Shown here: positions 39,908 to 49,325 of the stretch, piece after piece
Layout of the letters: every line of letters starts with the position of its first letter
Numbering within the stretch: position 1 is the first letter of the stretch
Origin: Haladaptatus sp. QDMS2
GTDB lineage: Archaea; Halobacteriota; Halobacteria; Halobacteriales; Halococcaceae
Direction: 5' to 3'
Length of the DNA: 64,000 nt
Assembly: GCF_029338295.1 (NCBI RefSeq)
Contig: NZ_CP119793.1
Coordinates: 124,001-188,000, forward strand
Made by a program: the position numbers and the translations under genes
Notes under the pieces: generated by a model
The model's database searches: none
Told to the model about the DNA's origin: nothing
The model's input: the letters and a program-made list of their open reading frames with translations, nothing else

Positions 39908-40807
39908 GTAAATAACAGGAGTACTACGAGACAAATCACTGGAAAGAAATGGTTTCTACTGTCTTCAATTTTTTAAGATCCTATTGCATGAATAAAAACA
40001 CTCTCACTCTGTATCTATCGACATGAATACGACGCGACCACGCCACCCGGAGGACTGGGGTAGCTCGATACTTTGAGACCGACTAAGGTTTGATCGTCGC
40101 AATTGGCACTCGCCCACGCGAAGATTTCGCTCTTGTTAGTGGACACGACGACTACGAGGGCACCGTTTTGAGGGAAGTTCTTGATAGAACTCTGGTTTTC
40201 CTGGCCTGGTTCAAGTGTATACTGGCCTCGAAATTGAGCCGACTCCGTAAAGTCAATTTTTGTCACCGTACGCGGGCCTGTATCGTGGTTAGATAGCCCT
40301 TGATCGATTTCAGAATCAACAATCGTCCCGTCTCGATATTGGACCTTCATAGAAGCTGGGAGTTCAACAACGTAGACTTCGAATGTGTTGTTCACGTTCG
40401 CTGAATTGTTGACGACGAGTTTGACCGGCTGCTCTTGTTCAGTAGAACCACTGAACGGTGTGGTACAACCCGCTATGATGAAGAGAGTAACGAGGCAAAG
40501 TACTGGAAGAAAACGCAGAACGGACATATTCATTGTTATATTGTGGTGATTTTTACTACGTTCTCTATTCTCTTAATCCTAGTTCAGATTGGGGCTAGTG
40601 AGCCAGGAAACAACGGGTTCGATAATTGATTCCTGACAGCATCCGCGGTAGTCTGGGTTCCATCAAGCTCATAATCCATTACCGGATGGGGCCCAGACCC
40701 CGATCTAAATGCGGTCTTATAGCCCCACGATCCCAGCCTATCGAACGGCGTGTACAGAGTGAAACTCGCCTCAGCCCCAAACAGATTGAACGCATCGTGC
40801 TGCGAGA
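39785..40807. repeat. 51-bp exact direct repeat within array fragments
   Basis: The sequence starting GAGTGAAACTCGCCTCAGCC is identical for 51 bases at 39785-39835 and 40757-40807, with further similarity beyond. It lies in the C-terminal-fragment copies that follow the first and second lipoprotein genes, showing recent duplication, gene conversion or strong conservation. Confidence 0.85.
40015..40533 (-). CDS. Small secreted lipoprotein of the tandem array (copy 1)
   Basis: A 172-residue protein with a hydrophobic signal ending in FIIAGC (lipobox), then a beta-rich domain: VKLVVNNSANVNNTFEVYVVELPASM, GQYTLEPGQENQSSIKNFPQNGALVVVVS and a C-terminal SYSC. It is the most diverged and lowest-GC of three tandem homologs (others at 40972-41478 and 41736-42245). 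Cys after the lipobox and near the C-terminus (NCDD, YSC) may form a disulfide. Start at 40533 or two codons later. No known domain assigned. Confidence 0.8.
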   Translation of the reverse strand: MNMSVLRFLPVLCLVTLFIIAGCTTPFSGSTEQEQPVKLVVNNSANVNNTFEVYVVELPASMKVQYRDGTIVDSEIDQGLSNHDTGPRTVTKIDFTESAQFRGQYTLEPGQENQSSIKNFPQNGALVVVVSTNKSEIFAWASANCDDQTLVGLKVSSYPSPPGGVVASYSCR

Positions 40808-40946
40808 AGGGGCCTTGGGTGACCCACTCGTCGCCCTCGTCAAACTCGTTTTCGTCTCTCAAGATCCCGCCCACATTCAGCGTGTGAGCCGGATAGACGC
40901 TCGCGTCCCAGACTCGAACGAGCCGGGCGCCGTCGGCCAGTAGCAT
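40584..40946 (-). CDS. Orphan C-terminal domain related to the 340-residue protein
   Basis: A 120-residue open frame, VRVWDASVYPAHTLNVGGILRDENEFDEGDEWVTQ through RLGSWGYKTAFRSGSGPHPVMDYE to NPLFPGSLAPI. It aligns along its length with the end of the protein at 42310-43332 (VRVWDASRYPAHALYVGGLWRDE..., SLGYGDHFRSGHGDHPLLDF..., SKPLFPPLP). Similarity begins just after the stop of the upstream lipoprotein gene, so it is a cassette without its N-terminal part. It may be expressed from the lipoprotein transcript or be silent. Confidence 0.65.
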   Translation of the reverse strand: MLLADGARLVRVWDASVYPAHTLNVGGILRDENEFDEGDEWVTQGPFSQHDAFNLFGAEASFTLYTPFDRLGSWGYKTAFRSGSGPHPVMDYELDGTQTTADAVRNQLSNPLFPGSLAPI

Positions 40947-40971
40947 AACCCACGAGAGATACGCCGGGAGC

Positions 40972-41478
40972 TTAGAAGAGTCCGCCCTCACAGTTGTACG
41001 CCGATCCCGGCCCGTACTCGAACAGGGTGACGTCCAGGAAGACCAAATCACCGTCACAGTGAGCAGTCACATACGAGATGATTTCGGCCTCGTCCCGGGA
41101 GATGACGACAACCACGGCGAAGTCCGCGGGGAGTTCCTTGACGGAACTTCGGTTCTCCTCGCCGGGGGCGAGGGTGTACCGCCCGTGCAGCCGGGCCGAG
41201 TCGGGCAATTCAACCATCCTGAAGGTGTGATTATCGCCTGGATCATGTGCGCCTAGTCCCGGGCTAATGGGCCCCGTTGCAGTAAGCCCGTCATCACGTC
41301 GCTCCGTTACATTCGCTGGGAACTCAACGACCCAGACCTCGAAGGTGTGCGTCACGTTCGCCGAGTTGTTGACGACGACCGTGACGGGCCCCTCTTGCCC
41401 GGTCGGCCCGAATGGCCCAAGGGTGCAGCCCGTGAGGACGAGGAACACGCATACGCACAGGATTGGGAGAGGACGCAT
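40972..41478 (-). CDS. Small secreted lipoprotein of the tandem array (copy 2)
   Basis: A 168-residue protein with signal MRPLPILCVCVFLVLTGC (lipobox LTGC). The domain contains VTVVVNNSANVTHTFEVWVVEFPAN, ARLHGRYTLAPGEENRSSVKELPADFAVVVVISRD, HCDGDLVFLDVTLFEYGPGSAYNCEGGLF. It is close to copy 3 at both ends and differs mainly in the middle. Four or more Asn-X-Ser/Thr sites. The orphan C-terminal domain follows immediately. Confidence 0.85.
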   Translation of the reverse strand: MRPLPILCVCVFLVLTGCTLGPFGPTGQEGPVTVVVNNSANVTHTFEVWVVEFPANVTERRDDGLTATGPISPGLGAHDPGDNHTFRMVELPDSARLHGRYTLAPGEENRSSVKELPADFAVVVVISRDEAEIISYVTAHCDGDLVFLDVTLFEYGPGSAYNCEGGLF

Positions 41479-41538
41479 GAGAATATTACCTGTCGCTGTG
41501 GTTGGTGGGTGCTTCGTCGCGAAGTTGCTTAACCTGTG

Positions 41539-41727
41539 TCATGGAAGCGATGGGAAGAGGGGGTCCGATAATGTATTCTCGACAGTCAGGGCAGAGAGGA
41601 TCGCACCATTTTCATTATGGAACAACAGTGGATGGTCACCAAGCCCGCTGCGAAAGAGGTTCGCGTACCCCAACGACCCGAACGTGATGTGGGTGGCTGT
41701 GAATGGTGGTGAGATGAGGTTCATCAT
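41539..41727 (-). pseudogene. Short orphan C-terminal fragment of the 340-residue protein
   Basis: A 62-codon frame whose last 45 codons, ITFGSLGYANLFRSGLGDHPLLFHNENGAILSALTVENTLSDPLFPSLP, match the end of the protein at 42310-43332. The first part is unrelated. It lies 8 bases after the stop of lipoprotein copy 3. Too short to be functional alone. Confidence 0.7.
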
Positions 41728-41735
41728 CGAGTCAC

Positions 41736-42245
41736 TCAGAAGAGCCCTCCCTCACAGTTGTATGCCGATCCTGACCCGTACTCGAACATGATGACCTCCA
41801 CGAAGACCAGGTCACCGTCACAGTGAGCTGCCACCAGCTCCCGGACGCGGTCACCATCATAGATGACCACGACAACTGTAGACCCCGTCTCGAACTTCTC
41901 AATGGAACTCCGATTGAGGTTCCCCGGATCAAGAGTATACCGGTTGTGGAGCCTAGATCGGTTGGAGGGCAACTCGATGGATGTGACGAAGCCGTAATCA
42001 TCATCGAGCTTGTACGTGCTTAGTCCCGGGCCTGGTGACGCTCTATCGACCGTTCCATCTTTCTTCCGAATGCGGACCTCTTTATTGATTAATTCTCCCT
42101 CAACCACCCACACCTCGAACGTATGCGAGGTATTCGCCGAATTGTTCACGACGACTGTAACTGGCCCCTCTTGGCCAGTCGGGCCGAGGCTACAGCCTGC
42201 GAGCACGACGAGGACGCCCAAACACAGCAGCGAGAGGAGACGCAT
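41736..42245 (-). CDS. Small secreted lipoprotein of the tandem array (copy 3)
   Basis: A 169-residue protein. MRLLSLLCLGVLVVLAGC is the lipoprotein signal. The folded part has VTVVVNNSANTSHTFEVWVVEGELINKEVRIRKKDGTVDRASPGPGLSTYKLDDDYGFVTSIELPSNRSRLHNRYTLDPG (in part) and ends HCDGDLVFVEVIMFEYGSGSAYNCEGGLF, nearly identical to copy 2. The frame is open further upstream, but the lipobox context fixes the start at 42245. It lies 64 bases after the complete 340-residue gene, which would be its partner. Confidence 0.85.
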   Translation of the reverse strand: MRLLSLLCLGVLVVLAGCSLGPTGQEGPVTVVVNNSANTSHTFEVWVVEGELINKEVRIRKKDGTVDRASPGPGLSTYKLDDDYGFVTSIELPSNRSRLHNRYTLDPGNLNRSSIEKFETGSTVVVVIYDGDRVRELVAAHCDGDLVFVEVIMFEYGSGSAYNCEGGLF

Positions 42246-42309
42246 GTTTCTGCCTTTATTGACCTCCGTCTTTGTTACGGTCTTCATTCTACTCTCACGT
42301 ACTTGCATA

Positions 42310-43332
42310 TCATGGAAGCGGTGGGAAGAGGGGCTTCGAGAGTGTGCTCTCGAGTGTTTCGATCGACAATATCGTCCCAGGATCACTAAAGTCCAGTAGA
42401 GGATGGTCACCATGCCCGCTGCGAAAGTGGTCCCCGTACCCCAACGATCCGAACGTCTCGAAGGGTGTCCGCCCGAGCAAGCGGCTATCTAACACGAACT
42501 CCCCGAACGCCGTATCCTGCGTCACCGGCCCATCCCGCGTCCACTCGATCCCTTCCCGAAACGGCCGCTCGTCTCGCCAGAGCCCACCCACGTACAGCGC
42601 GTGGGCGGGATATCGACTTGCGTCCCAGACCCGGACGACCTTTGTCCCGTCGGCCATCACCACGACATCCAGGAACGCGTAAAACGACGGGATGTTTTGC
42701 CAAAACAGCAGTACCGCCAGCGGGATGTTCCCGGCGAACAGTTGGGCGAGCGTATACCCATCTTTCAAGGCGACGATGTAGGGGTCGTTGCCCCCGAGGA
42801 TGATCGAGGCACGCACTCCCTCGACGGTCCCGCCGCTGCCGTCCGGCACGGTCACGAGCTCGTCGGTCGTGTACGGCCCCTTCACGTTCGCGGGGAGGAA
42901 GTTATCGGCCCCATCCAGAGAATCCAAGATAGTGACGAAGAGGGTCGACTCGCCGGGACCACCCTCTCGCGTGATCGACGAGACCGAACTCGGGTTCTGC
43001 ATGCTCGGGTCGTCGTACAGCGCGTCGTACTCGCCATTGAGGACTGTCCGGCCGTCCGTGTCGAAGCCGATCTCGACAGCTGTGTTGATCCGGAAGTTCG
43101 GGAACGGGTCAGTGTACTCCTCGAGAGTTTTACTCCCAAGGGCGGTCGAGATAGTACTGGGCAAGCTCTGTCTGTCATCGCCGTGGAACCCCTCGTCCAG
43201 AAAGTCGGGGATGGCGCTGTTTCGTGCTGTCGCGGTGGGATCGTTGGGATCACCACTGTTCTCGTTATGTCCGAAGATGGACGTAACTACGTTCGCCTCC
43301 TCGGTGATATCCCAGGGTACTGGGAGGGTCAT
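42310..43332 (-). CDS. Unrecognised 340-residue protein, head of the cassette array
   Basis: Starts MTLPVPWDITEEANVVTSIFGHNENSGDP. It has no signal peptide. A hydrophobic stretch, IPLAVLLFWQNIPSFYAFLDVVVMADG (about 212-238), separates a 210-residue N-terminal part from the 100-residue C-terminal domain that recurs in the downstream fragments. No cysteines seen. The ATG overlaps the stop of the Tat-exported protein (ATGA), so the two are co-translated and probably interact; export by hitchhiking with the Tat partner is possible. No known family. Confidence 0.75.
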   Translation of the reverse strand: MTLPVPWDITEEANVVTSIFGHNENSGDPNDPTATARNSAIPDFLDEGFHGDDRQSLPSTISTALGSKTLEEYTDPFPNFRINTAVEIGFDTDGRTVLNGEYDALYDDPSMQNPSSVSSITREGGPGESTLFVTILDSLDGADNFLPANVKGPYTTDELVTVPDGSGGTVEGVRASIILGGNDPYIVALKDGYTLAQLFAGNIPLAVLLFWQNIPSFYAFLDVVVMADGTKVVRVWDASRYPAHALYVGGLWRDERPFREGIEWTRDGPVTQDTAFGEFVLDSRLLGRTPFETFGSLGYGDHFRSGHGDHPLLDFSDPGTILSIETLESTLSKPLFPPLP

Positions 43333-45420: not shown

Positions 45421-45476
45421 CTCACAAATACGCCCTACAGACAAGATATATGTGTTTGGGCCGCGAACGAACGAAT

Positions 45477-46004
45477 ATGAGTGACGATCGGTCGCCAACG
45501 GTTGACGCCGCAGAGCAGTGGCGTACGGACCGAACGACCTTCCAACGTGTCTACGATGTCCTCGTTGGGACGGATGAGCCGGCGTCTGCACAGCAGTTTG
45601 CAGAGTGGGCAGACTGCTCCGAGAATGGAGCCCGACAGGCACTCCAACAACTGACCGAGATGGGTATTGCAGACAAAACCGACACACGGCCTGCAACCTA
45701 CACCCGTAACACCTCGTACCTCCGGTGGAAGCGAGTTGAACAACTCGCCCGTGAGCAGAGTCCGAGTGACCTTCGGGCACGGGTTGAGGAACTCATTTCA
45801 GAGGATCAGAGCTTCCAAGCAACCTATGGTGTCCCAGAGCCGGACGCTGTGGTCACGACTGAAACGGCGGTAGCTGATCACGAGATGCTTCACCAGCAGT
45901 GGGAGGACCTCTCTGACTGGCGGACCATCCGCCGTGACATTCAGGTCATCCAGCAAGCAGTCCACCGTGCAGAAGCACTGCGCGACGACCGAGCACGAGT
46001 CTGA
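45477..46004 (+). CDS. HTH regulator/antitoxin of a TumE-like pair (second copy)
   Basis: A 175-residue paralog of the protein at 22870-23403: TTFQRVYDVLVGTDEPASAQQFAEWADCSENGARQALQQLTEMGIADK, then PATYTRNTSYLRWKRVEQLA and a helical tail. The pattern PATY.RN.SY..W and the following gene pairing are shared. The TumE-like gene begins 3 bases after its stop. The two copies are well diverged, so they may not cross-neutralise. Confidence 0.8.
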   Translation: MSDDRSPTVDAAEQWRTDRTTFQRVYDVLVGTDEPASAQQFAEWADCSENGARQALQQLTEMGIADKTDTRPATYTRNTSYLRWKRVEQLAREQSPSDLRARVEELISEDQSFQATYGVPEPDAVVTTETAVADHEMLHQQWEDLSDWRTIRRDIQVIQQAVHRAEALRDDRARV

Positions 46005-46007
46005 CCC

Positions 46008-46445
46008 GTGACCGAACGGACAGAAGGGCCAAGCGGCCCACTCGACATTCCAACGCTCACTGTGTTGGCACAGCGGGCGGCGACACACCCACTCATCACC
46101 GAGTGGCAGTTTCGGCCAGATTCACTCAGTCCACGTCTCCTCAAACTTCAAATCGATCCAACCCAGTACCCAGCGTCACTGAGTGGTGTGCGACTTGACG
46201 TCCGATGGTTCGAAGGCGGAATGTATTCATTCCACTATCTAGAGACTGCGTCGAATGAAACATGGCAGTGCCGCTGGGATAGACATCCGAAGCCACACGC
46301 GCCGACTGCTCACTTCCATCCACCCCCGGACGCAAATGACCTCGTTGAGCCCTCACCTCTCGAAGCAGACCACCACCTCGCGGTTCTGTTTGCTGTCCTT
46401 GAGTGGCTCGAAAAGCGAGTGAGTAAGCACCACGACATCTCGTGA
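46008..46445 (+). CDS. TumE-like (DUF6516-type) toxin candidate (second copy)
   Basis: A 145-residue protein with GTG start. LRLDVRWFEGGMYSFHYLETASNETWQCRWDRHPKPHAPTAHFHPPPD (in part: LDVRWFEGGMYSFHYLE, CRWDRHPKPH, HFHPPPD) parallels the core of the protein at 23406-23837. The C-terminal amphipathic helix AVLEWLEKRVSKHH matches as well. Family similarity and pairing suggest a toxin. Both copies are intact. Confidence 0.65.
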   Translation: MTERTEGPSGPLDIPTLTVLAQRAATHPLITEWQFRPDSLSPRLLKLQIDPTQYPASLSGVRLDVRWFEGGMYSFHYLETASNETWQCRWDRHPKPHAPTAHFHPPPDANDLVEPSPLEADHHLAVLFAVLEWLEKRVSKHHDIS

Positions 46446-46641: not shown

Positions 46642-47004
46642 TTAATCGATAGCTTCAGCCGCTGTGATGTTTTTCGGACCAATATAGATTAGCAGGCTCT
46701 CTGGCCCGGAATAGTCGAACGTGTGAGTAAGCTGCTTGCCTTCCGATCTCGCAGTAATGTTGTATACTCCATGCCCGCTGTTTAGGCTGACTTTCTTGTT
46801 TTCTCTTCCGTCGACAGTATAGGTGTCATCAGCGATTGTCGAGTTGTTTTTCGTGACGGTCAGTGAAACCTCTGTAGATTGGTTCTGTTCATTGTACAGA
46901 TATATTGTCGGGCCGGAAGGGTCATTGGATCCCCCGATACCGCCTATACAGCCCGCCAGTGAAACAGTACTAACCAGCAGCAAGCCGATTATGATTTTCT
47001 TCAT
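46642..47004 (-). CDS. Small secreted lipoprotein
   Basis: A 120-residue protein with a signal MKKIIIGLLLVSTVSLAGC (lipobox), a Gly/Ser linker and a beta-rich domain (PTIYLYNEQNQSTEVSLTVTKN, then VSLNSGHGVYNITARSEG). It is shorter than and not clearly homologous to the array lipoproteins at 40-42 kb, but shares the exported beta-domain plan. Unknown role; AT-rich surroundings. Confidence 0.75.
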   Translation of the reverse strand: MKKIIIGLLLVSTVSLAGCIGGIGGSNDPSGPTIYLYNEQNQSTEVSLTVTKNNSTIADDTYTVDGRENKKVSLNSGHGVYNITARSEGKQLTHTFDYSGPESLLIYIGPKNITAAEAID

Positions 47005-47076: not shown

Positions 47077-47442
47077 TCATGACATTCCGAGGTTATAGAC
47101 GACCTCTTGATTCACATCACCATACCGGTGGGTGAGGATATTCCGAAATCCGACTGCTTCTTCCAGCTGTTCCTGGACGTCGTGTGAGATAATATCTGCA
47201 TTCCCGAGCGACTCAATCTCCTTTTTTGCGGTCCCACTGGGTGAGAGCCCCTCCGACGCGCGAATATGCTGGGCGAGGTCGATACAGGACTGAATAAGAT
47301 TCATGAACGTCCGCTCAACCGCTCGCTGGACGATGATCTCGTCAACATACGCCGCCTTCGACAGTCCCCGCATTTGCTTCAGGTCATTCGTGTACTCGTT
47401 GATGTACCGGAGCTTGTCAACAACAATATCCTCGTCGACCAC
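47077..47442 (-). CDS. hepT: HepT-like HEPN RNase toxin
   Basis: A 121-residue HEPN-fold protein. The active motif R-x4-H-x-Y is seen as RNILTHRY near the C-terminus, with preceding helices KLRYINEYTNDLKQM and ERTFMNLIQSCIDLAQHIRASEG. In this family the Tyr is AMPylated by the partner MntA, blocking RNase activity. Starts at GTG, sharing a base with the mntA stop. Complete. Confidence 0.9.
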   Translation of the reverse strand: MVDEDIVVDKLRYINEYTNDLKQMRGLSKAAYVDEIIVQRAVERTFMNLIQSCIDLAQHIRASEGLSPSGTAKKEIESLGNADIISHDVQEQLEEAVGFRNILTHRYGDVNQEVVYNLGMS

Positions 47443-47876
47443 TAGACGTCACCACGAGCCAACCGATCGATGAATTCCCGTTGTTCTCGTTCTCGCTCGC
47501 TCGCACCTGCAGTATACGCTGCGTCGACGTGCTGTTTGTACGCGGTAATGACCGCTGGATCACCACTGATGCGAATCCCATCCCTGAGCGCAGCGTGCGC
47601 AACGTGCGTTGGCAGCAACTCGATATCGCTCACGTCGACGAATCTGTCTGCGTATGCTTGGAGGTCTGCGTCGATACGGTTGCGTCGGCGGAACCGCTCG
47701 GCTTCGGACAGGTCATCCGGGAACTGGAGGGCAATATCGACATCCGATGTCTCCTCTGCCGTTCCTTTCGCATGCGACCCAAACAGCACTGCGGAGATGA
47801 CCTCGGTTTCATCGAGATAGTCCCTGATTCCTTCGAGGTCGATTGTTTCGACAGCGAAGTCGTCCGGTTTGGGCAT
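47442..47876 (-). CDS. mntA: MntA-like nucleotidyltransferase antitoxin
   Basis: A 144-residue minimal nucleotidyltransferase. VISAVLFGSHAKGTAEETSDVDIALQF carries the GSx10DxD catalytic motif; a third acidic residue is supplied by FVDVSDIELL. It would transfer AMP to the Tyr in the HepT motif. It is the first gene of the pair and ends where HepT begins. All expected active-site residues are present, so the system looks functional. Confidence 0.9.
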   Translation of the reverse strand: MPKPDDFAVETIDLEGIRDYLDETEVISAVLFGSHAKGTAEETSDVDIALQFPDDLSEAERFRRRNRIDADLQAYADRFVDVSDIELLPTHVAHAALRDGIRISGDPAVITAYKQHVDAAYTAGASEREREQREFIDRLARGDV

Positions 47877-47924: not shown

Positions 47925-48428
47925 TCGGTACGGCTCGCCCCGCTCGCCGCGTTCCGCCTTCCGGTGAGCAAAGCTCACCGTCGTCTCGTTCGCTTCGCTC
48001 ACGAGCCCTCCGCGGCGCTCGCGACCGACCATTCCGGGCTGTCGCGGTCTCGTTCCTCCGTCACTCGACCGCGTTCCGGGCTAAAGTGCATGTGCCCTCG
48101 ACGCCTGCATTAAGCGCGTTTTCGGTTGCGCCCCTCGCGGGCCGGACACGAGAAACGGCTTAACGCTGGCCGCTCGCTCCGGGCGGGTCGTTGTCGCACT
48201 CACTCCGCTCGCGCGACAAGCCTCACCTCGCTGCGCTCGGTGAGACGGCGCGCGGTGCTGGTTGATTGTCCGCCTCAGACGCGCTCTCGCTCGCGCCCCA
48301 AGGGGCGCTTGCGAAGGCGCGAGCGAGAGCGCATAGATGGGTCTGTCGGTCGGTGTCGTCGAAGAACCGCGATGTAATGGCATCGCGGTGTCGGGCGCTG
48401 AGCGCCTTCGGAACTAGGTTGAGTTCCA
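47925..48428. repeat. GC-rich region of consecutive hairpins
   Basis: About 500 non-coding bases with at least six dyads in series, including GTGAGC-AAA-GCTCAC near 47964, TTGTCGC...GCGACAA near 48190-48222, CTCACC...GGTGAG near 48223-48244, a 15-bp-arm repeat at 48281-48295/48318-48332 with a second stem nested inside it, ACCGCGATG...CATCGCGGT near 48367-48390, and GGAACT...AGTTCC just before the ATG at 48429. Location upstream of an OB-fold gene suggests an origin, transfer origin or structured RNA. Confidence 0.6.
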
Positions 48429-49325
48429 ATGTCAAGTAAGAACGTTACCACTGATGTAGTTTCGGTCGACGAACAGGCATTCGAAAACGCGGACGAAGCG
48501 GCGGTCGACGAGGACGGCTTCGAGGTCGTCGATGAGACGCCGGCATTCCAGGCGACGGTGCAGATGGAAGTTCAGGCAAAGGTCGATGCGAACCACCCGG
48601 ACGGGATGGTCGACACCAGTGACGAACGGATCTATGGGGCGACCCTCGAACAGGAAGAGCGCATTCGGGCGCGGGAAGCCGAACTGGAGCGCATCAGTGC
48701 CCAGGCAGAGCTGGGGACGCAGGACGGTCGGGAGAAGCGGACGCGAGACATCGCGGCGAAGCGGAGCGTTGAGCGGCGTGCAGCGTTCCAGAAGCGGGCG
48801 GCGAGCGTGAACCCGTGGGCAGACCCGAAGCGAGGTGATCCCCGTGCAGAACTCACGCAGGAGCAGTTGGCGGCGGTGAATAAGCAGTCGATGCGGCTGT
48901 CGAAGAAGCTAGATGGCTGGTCGCGAGCGGCAATTGGTCGGCGGCTGGGTGAAGCCGTCGTCGGTGGGAAAGACCTGATGAGCGCGGTCGTCGGGGTGTT
49001 CGAGGAGTTGCAGACGGCGCCCGGGACGGTGGTTCCCATCGGGAAGCTTGAGGACGTCAATCGTAAAGAAGTGAGCATCGAGGGCCGTGTGACGCAGCTT
49101 TGGGAACCTTCCAGTCCGAGCATCGCTCAAGTTGGGCTCATCGAGGACGAGAGCGGTCGTACAAAACTGACGAGCTGGAAGGCGTCGGATGCTCCGTGGA
49201 TCGAAGAGGGCGAGCGCGTGCGGATTCACGGGGCGGCGAAGAACTGGTATAACGGGCGCGTCTCAGTGGCCCTCACTGGGTGGAGCACCGTGATGTTCCC
49301 CGAGCGCGGTCGGTGGTGGGAATAG
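48429..49325 (+). CDS. OB-fold (RPA-like) single-strand DNA-binding protein candidate
   Basis: A 298-residue protein. An acidic N-terminus leads to a helical middle (ELTQEQLAAVNKQSMRLSKKLDGWSRAAIGRRL), then a C-terminal OB fold: KLEDVNRKEVSIEGRVTQLWEPSSPSIAQVGLIEDESGRTKLTSWKAS (in part), WIEEGERVRIHGAAKNWYNGRVSVALTGWSTV. The last part matches haloarchaeal RPA-like OB domains. The protein is frequent on plasmids and integrated elements. The strong hairpin region directly upstream suggests they work together in replication or transfer. Confidence 0.75.
   Translation: MSSKNVTTDVVSVDEQAFENADEAAVDEDGFEVVDETPAFQATVQMEVQAKVDANHPDGMVDTSDERIYGATLEQEERIRAREAELERISAQAELGTQDGREKRTRDIAAKRSVERRAAFQKRAASVNPWADPKRGDPRAELTQEQLAAVNKQSMRLSKKLDGWSRAAIGRRLGEAVVGGKDLMSAVVGVFEELQTAPGTVVPIGKLEDVNRKEVSIEGRVTQLWEPSSPSIAQVGLIEDESGRTKLTSWKASDAPWIEEGERVRIHGAAKNWYNGRVSVALTGWSTVMFPERGRWWE

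Follow-up and report, generated by a model that had tools for sequence, protein, structure and literature searches.

The region 47926–48428 of the window (the whole 64 000-nucleotide stretch of DNA analysed here) is a large structured element of haloarchaea. Its hairpins are real and exceed chance, its fold is conserved and covarying, and it is strictly fused to the start codons of genes for an OB-fold protein or for TFB (TFIIB). We lean slightly towards reading it as a structured 5′ leader in the mRNA of the OB-fold gene, with a fold that would control access to the start codon, plausibly in an autogenous manner. The window is plasmid DNA of a Haladaptatus-like haloarchaeon and lies within contig C3 (331 kb) of a genome of three contigs; the closest public plasmid, unnamed1 of Haladaptatus sp. 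DYSN1, is 99.8% identical over the element. The element is about 500 nt long here and reaches about 800 nt in relatives. Its parts and the gene that follows are listed below, all on the plus strand.

47926–47950, plus: 5′ boundary block CGG..CGCCCCGCTCGCCGC, a conserved block with which the main body begins (about 370 to 590 nt before the ATG in relatives).
47962–47980 (arms 47962–47969/47973–47980) and 47985–48005 (arms 47985–47989/48001–48005), plus: two optional 5′ hairpins, found only in some alleles.
48023–48039, plus: conserved single-stranded block GACCGACCATTCCGGGC, near-invariant in type A relatives.
48043–48073 (arms 48043–48049/48067–48073), plus: allele-variable hairpin s2, flanked by two TTCCGGGC repeats; arm-swap test.
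48082–48103, plus: conserved 22-nt linker TAAAGTGCATGTGCCCTCGACG, constant in length across 51 parsed type A elements.
48104–48169 (inverted repeat 48110–48115/48158–48163), plus: long-range core helix CC[A/T]GC...GCTGG with an allele-specific interior; arm-swap test.
48191–48219 (arms 48191–48197/48213–48219) and 48222–48244 (arms 48222–48227/48239–48244), plus: two more hairpins, missing from shorter alleles.
48281–48332 (arms 48281–48297/48316–48332), plus: H1, a perfect 17-bp hairpin, with an inner stem at about 48297–48306 and GAAGGCGC at 48313–48320.
48366–48389 (arms 48366–48374/48381–48389), plus: hairpin H2; Watson–Crick count over 46 distinct hairpins.
48393–48409 (dyad 48394–48406), plus: hairpin H3, then GCGCCTTC (48402–48409), complementary to GAAGGCGC in H1.
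48410–48427 (arms 48410–48415/48422–48427), plus: start-codon hairpin, 6 bp, separated by 1 nt from the ATG at 48429.
48429–49325, plus: gene for the OB-fold protein, 298 aa (Pfam PF01336, 8.9e-07).

The preliminary description had reported serial GC-rich dyads over 47925–48428, and inverted repeats are indeed located there, from 47962 to 48427. It had also described 15-bp arms enclosing a second stem; the inner stem of H1 is present and the arms are slightly longer than stated. The final dyad, said to touch the start codon, is the start hairpin, which stops one nucleotide short of it.

From 5′ to 3′, the order of the parts is optional domain I, the box CGGCCCGCCCCGCTCGCCGC, optional hairpins, GACCGACCATTCCGGGC, s2, TTCCGGGC with the 22-nt linker, and the core helix, followed by the conserved GGCGCGCGGTGCTGG, H1, H2, H3 and the start hairpin. 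The helix sequences occur as distinct alleles in many combinations, and the junctions are conserved. Domain I (GAAAGCCC...CCCTTTC), present in many relatives, is missing from the window copy, which starts at about 47926; among relatives without this domain, the sequence 5′ of the boundary block is unrelated. The core helix CCAGC/GCTGG encloses about 50–160 nt in relatives, and its CCAGC carries an A-to-T mismatch in the window copy. The segment holding the 48191–48244 hairpins mostly measures either 53–57 or 101–122 nt, depending on the allele. A second class, type B (Haloferax, Halorubrum and others), shares the 3′ end of type A but differs in its 5′ part. The loop of the start hairpin contains the SD-like words GGTGA or GTGA in many relatives and AGGTTGA in the window copy; such words most often end 6–8 nt from the ATG, many being only 4 nt long and hence partly due to chance. 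Type A and type B relatives both retain the complementarity between GAAGGCGC and GCGCCTTC, so that an alternative pairing is possible, and the two sequences are a candidate pseudoknot or switch.

The preliminary description considered the density of dyads to exceed that of ordinary intergenic DNA, and the folding energies agree. On both strands, 47925–48428 folds with a lower energy than its dinucleotide shuffles (plus strand z −2.0, minus strand z −5.4), unlike six control stretches of 504 nt from the window (z −1.3 to +1.0). Mean z values for 34 families of relatives range from −2.4 to −4.7, whichever strand is folded; z is lower on the minus strand in 29 of the 34 families for the 5′ part and in 25 for the 3′ part, a slight difference.

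Covariation in homologous loci, proposed earlier as a check, was analysed by arm-swap and shuffle tests, and the stem arms do covary. In the arm-swap test, the 5′ arm of one locus is paired with the 3′ arm of another, both arms being less than 60% alike. Matched arms pair better than swapped ones in s2 (−14.1 against −8.0 kcal/mol), the core helix (−18.8 against −6.9), H1 (−33.6 against −23.3) and the start hairpin (−7.4 against −2.7). Domain I has an outer helix in which the effect is weak (−13.6 against −10.8), and this helix is therefore less certain. Over 46 distinct H2 hairpins (7 bp), 310 of 322 cells are Watson–Crick, with 16 further Watson–Crick pair types. At positions 3–5 of the start hairpin, 149 of the 165 cells in 55 distinct hairpins are Watson–Crick, a count reached by none of 2000 shuffles, in which relatedness is uncontrolled. 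The alignment of the 3′ 153 nt contains seven cells with double changes and is too conserved to inform much. The arms are strongly divergent between alleles yet still complementary, those of the long-range helix included, which argues that the fold is under selection.

The placement of the element is strict. A start codon lies directly 3′ of it in 146 of 148 sampled loci found with the covariance model, 141 belonging to OB-fold genes and five to TFB genes. One of the two others precedes an OB gene that matches only from residue 38, so that its start is not placeable; the second (L194/L281, G034:C2) is an orphan element without an OB or TFB gene, the divergence beginning inside the start hairpin. 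The pooled set of 192 unique elements comprises 186 before OB and six before TFB genes. Of the 80 OB loci identified through their protein, nearly all have the 3′ signature GCGCCTTC beside the start; the two exceptions differ by one C-to-T change.

In two TFB subfamilies, the leader and the first codons (MSS...) are similar to those of the OB genes, which is consistent with transplantation of the leader and start region onto TFB genes. In roughly 30 of the 80 loci a TFB gene follows downstream, typically at a distance of about 1.1 kb; since OB and TFB genes are often neighbours, deletion may be the route to the fusions. A CxxC zinc-ribbon ORF (about 300 aa, no Pfam match) is present at 31 of the 80 OB loci (L059, L060, L063 and L069 among them), usually about 2.1 kb past the OB start and often after TFB. 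At 12 of the 80 (L057, L062, L064, L070, L073, L079, L083, L103, L114, L125, L126 and L131), a gene for an HNH homing endonuclease (associated repeats PF18780) lies about 1.0–1.5 kb downstream of the OB start. The upstream neighbours of the OB genes of relatives are commonly small accessory genes resembling PIN, ribbon–helix–helix and HTH proteins.

The OB-fold assignment of the downstream protein, made in the preliminary description, is confirmed, and the fold is RPA/SSB-like. The 298-aa product has an acidic N-terminus, a helical middle with a long helix at residues 73–127 and a C-terminal OB fold, with PDB matches to 2kbn/2ken (9e-14) and to the SSB 1o7i. The AF2 model, of moderate confidence (mean pLDDT 65), matches RPA/SSB folds. 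No Pfam family matches the N-terminal two-thirds, and the NCBIfam RPA model PRK07217 reaches 63.6 bits against a cut-off of 353, over the OB domain only. The protein thus shares its C-terminal fold with archaeal RPA and SSB (2ken, 1o7i, RPA of Pyrococcus abyssi) and differs from them in that the full-length family is seen only in Halobacteria. Among the matches listed for the phylum sample, near-full-length homologues occur only in the order of the window, and outside it the OB domain alone is matched. The protein was not found in viral contigs.

With a covariance model built from its 3′ 153 nt, the element is detected in 213 of the 391 Halobacteria genomes searched; these 213 cover 67 of the 86 genera. 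The element is found mostly on plasmids: 152 haloarchaeal plasmid records contain it by DNA similarity and 197 contain the OB gene. Halobacterium NRC-1 carries the element on both pNRC100 and pNRC200. At the gathering threshold the window matches no Rfam family, and at a relaxed threshold the elements of the window, L054 and L131 give only weak, chance-like matches below the cut-off. No published description was found in the open-access literature searched.

The genome contains five paralogous copies, the window element among them. The four others are C1:1541893–1542378, C1:2165904–2166147, C2:37924–38166 and C2:72970–73138; two of the genome's copies are on the chromosome. The first of the four is 77% identical to the window element and is followed by a TFB gene; an OB-fold paralogue lies downstream of the other three. 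These copies carry different hairpin alleles. Upstream of the element in the window, a HepT-like/nucleotidyltransferase (MNT) toxin–antitoxin pair (47077–47876, minus strand) is divergent from it, and at 45450–46445 (plus strand) the gene for a DUF7342 HTH protein precedes a weakly TumE-like ORF, possibly as a second such pair. The stretches 40015–42413 and 46642–47004 (both minus strand) encode tandem paralogous small lipoproteins with a common VVVNNSAN..HTFEVWVVE-like motif and a further small lipoprotein nearby.

The functions first proposed for this region were an origin of replication, an origin of transfer or a structured leader RNA, and the leader is the best supported of these. An origin of replication is disfavoured by the several copies per replicon, the chromosomal copies and the distance from Orc1/Cdc6: the nearest Cdc6_C gene on C3 is at 287 kb, the element at 172 kb, and the closest that any other copy comes to one is about 20 kb. 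An origin of transfer is disfavoured because MOB-suite, a tool that may miss archaeal relaxases, types every one of the 197 OB-gene plasmid records as non-mobilizable. Absence from viral contigs also counts against either kind of origin. A TnpB/IscB guide RNA was also considered; no gene of either kind is annotated next to the near-identical copy in Haladaptatus DYSN1, and the one TnpB near the pNRC200 copy has no conserved counterpart among the identified neighbour families of the 80 loci.

The leader reading is supported by the start-codon fusion, by the covarying stems, by the negative folding z-scores, by the SD-like words and by the apparent transplantation before TFB genes. The element has the same-strand position directly before the start codon and the conserved covarying structure expected of a cis-acting leader, and the long-range helix with nested stems and conserved junction sequence is RNA-like. 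We infer from these features that the element is transcribed, acts as RNA, switches and is bound by the OB protein. It would form a multi-domain mRNA leader with conserved single-stranded junctions and allele-swapping hairpins, ending in a small hairpin, often with an SD-like loop, one base before the AUG. The fold would most likely gate the start codon, GCGCCUUC by the start region pairing either locally (H3) or with GAAGGCGC in H1, and the encoded nucleic-acid-binding protein may plausibly be its own regulator. Leaderless mRNAs are considered the rule in haloarchaea. The GC-rich stretch right before the ATG shows no TATA-like box, which makes a leaderless start at this ATG unlikely.

Counting against the leader are the lower minus-strand z, a missing wobble preference and the failure to find a conserved promoter or TATA box at the 5′ edge of the element. 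A helix of RNA allows G–U on its own strand, where the complementary strand reads A–C. Based on a Watson–Crick-only consensus, the element helices show 15 G–U, 23 A–C and 13 other events (p = 0.26, with power limited by the low within-allele divergence). Totals under different filters are 59:50, 11:22 and 15:23, none with a clear G–U excess; the 15:23 count supersedes earlier within-allele counts made noisy by mis-assigned stems. As positive controls, haloarchaeal SRP RNA gives a G–U:A–C ratio of 8:2 (6:2, 9:4 and 8:1 in three refolded subsets) and RNase P 6:0, these RNAs being more diverged than the within-allele families and counted with filters that are not identical. Recent unselected changes may dominate the within-allele families. 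There are no G–U cells at positions 1–5 of 55 start hairpins, and a census of tetraloops is uninformative for the choice of strand. The wobble result weakens the case for a plus-strand RNA and, together with the missing 5′-edge promoter, keeps a DNA-level or antisense function live.

The fold might thus act as DNA, as plasmid hairpins or cruciforms bound by the OB protein, for example at a recombination, replication-restart or maintenance site. The nearly equal G–U and A–C changes, the almost perfectly Watson–Crick stems, the good folding of both strands, the RPA/SSB-like protein and the mostly plasmid-borne occurrence agree with such a role. We nevertheless consider it unlikely, as it gives no obvious reason for the start-codon fusion and the TFB transplantation; long-range nested helices and conserved junctions are RNA-like, there are several copies per replicon and two on the chromosome, the nearest Orc1/Cdc6 on C3 is about 115 kb away, and the OB-gene plasmids are typed non-mobilizable. 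A separate non-coding RNA appears about as improbable, whether a sense leader that is processed off and joins the OB protein in an RNP or an antisense transcript that runs away from the OB gene and controls it; swapped alleles would then confer specificity on coexisting copies. Its size and multi-domain architecture would resemble those of OLE-type large RNAs, the paralogues of the genome differ in hairpin alleles, with modules in many combinations, the minus strand folds slightly better, and the slight A–C excess would be G–U on that strand. The excess is not significant, however, a promoter is not evident for the opposite direction either, and the TFB fusions point to a role in cis. Finally, template switching or gene conversion could preserve GC-rich palindromes that have no function, which would account for near-perfect arms without wobble tolerance; we regard this as very improbable given the conserved junctions, the constant 22-nt linker, the spread over 67 of 86 genera and the retention before nearly every OB gene examined.

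The mRNA leader that we favour would have parallels among autogenously regulated leaders, such as those of ribosomal proteins and the translational autoregulation of the phage T4 gene 32 ssDNA-binding protein. They share with it a structured region by the start codon of a nucleic-acid-binding protein, whereas the haloarchaeal element is far larger (500–800 nt), modular, archaeal and built of swapped alleles, its binding by the OB protein being putative. OLE, HEARO and GOLLD are multi-branched RNAs of several hundred nucleotides that usually adjoin one protein family. The element resembles them in size, branching and its single protein-family neighbour, but has no Rfam match and has an OB-fold protein or TFB as partner. 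In CopA/CopT-type antisense control of plasmids, hairpin alleles before a gene start vary between coexisting replicons. Alleles and site are similar here; the differences are the several copies per replicon and on the chromosome, a partner that is not a known initiator and an antisense RNA that is hypothetical. It is possible, though we hold it only tentatively, that the element represents an undescribed class of very large modular haloarchaeal elements, in which swapped hairpin cassettes would provide copy-specific control of plasmid-borne OB/TFB regulators at the RNA or DNA level, possibly by antisense RNA.

To our knowledge, Archaea offer few examples of structured regulatory leaders. Should the fold act at the DNA level instead, it would define a new kind of folded site on plasmids, with an SSB-like protein acting on it. 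The element occurs in over half of the haloarchaeal genomes sampled and on the model plasmids pNRC100 and pNRC200, and it has no Rfam family; it is a directly testable candidate regulator, and its repeated fusion to TFB genes ties it to the expanded haloarchaeal TFB set.
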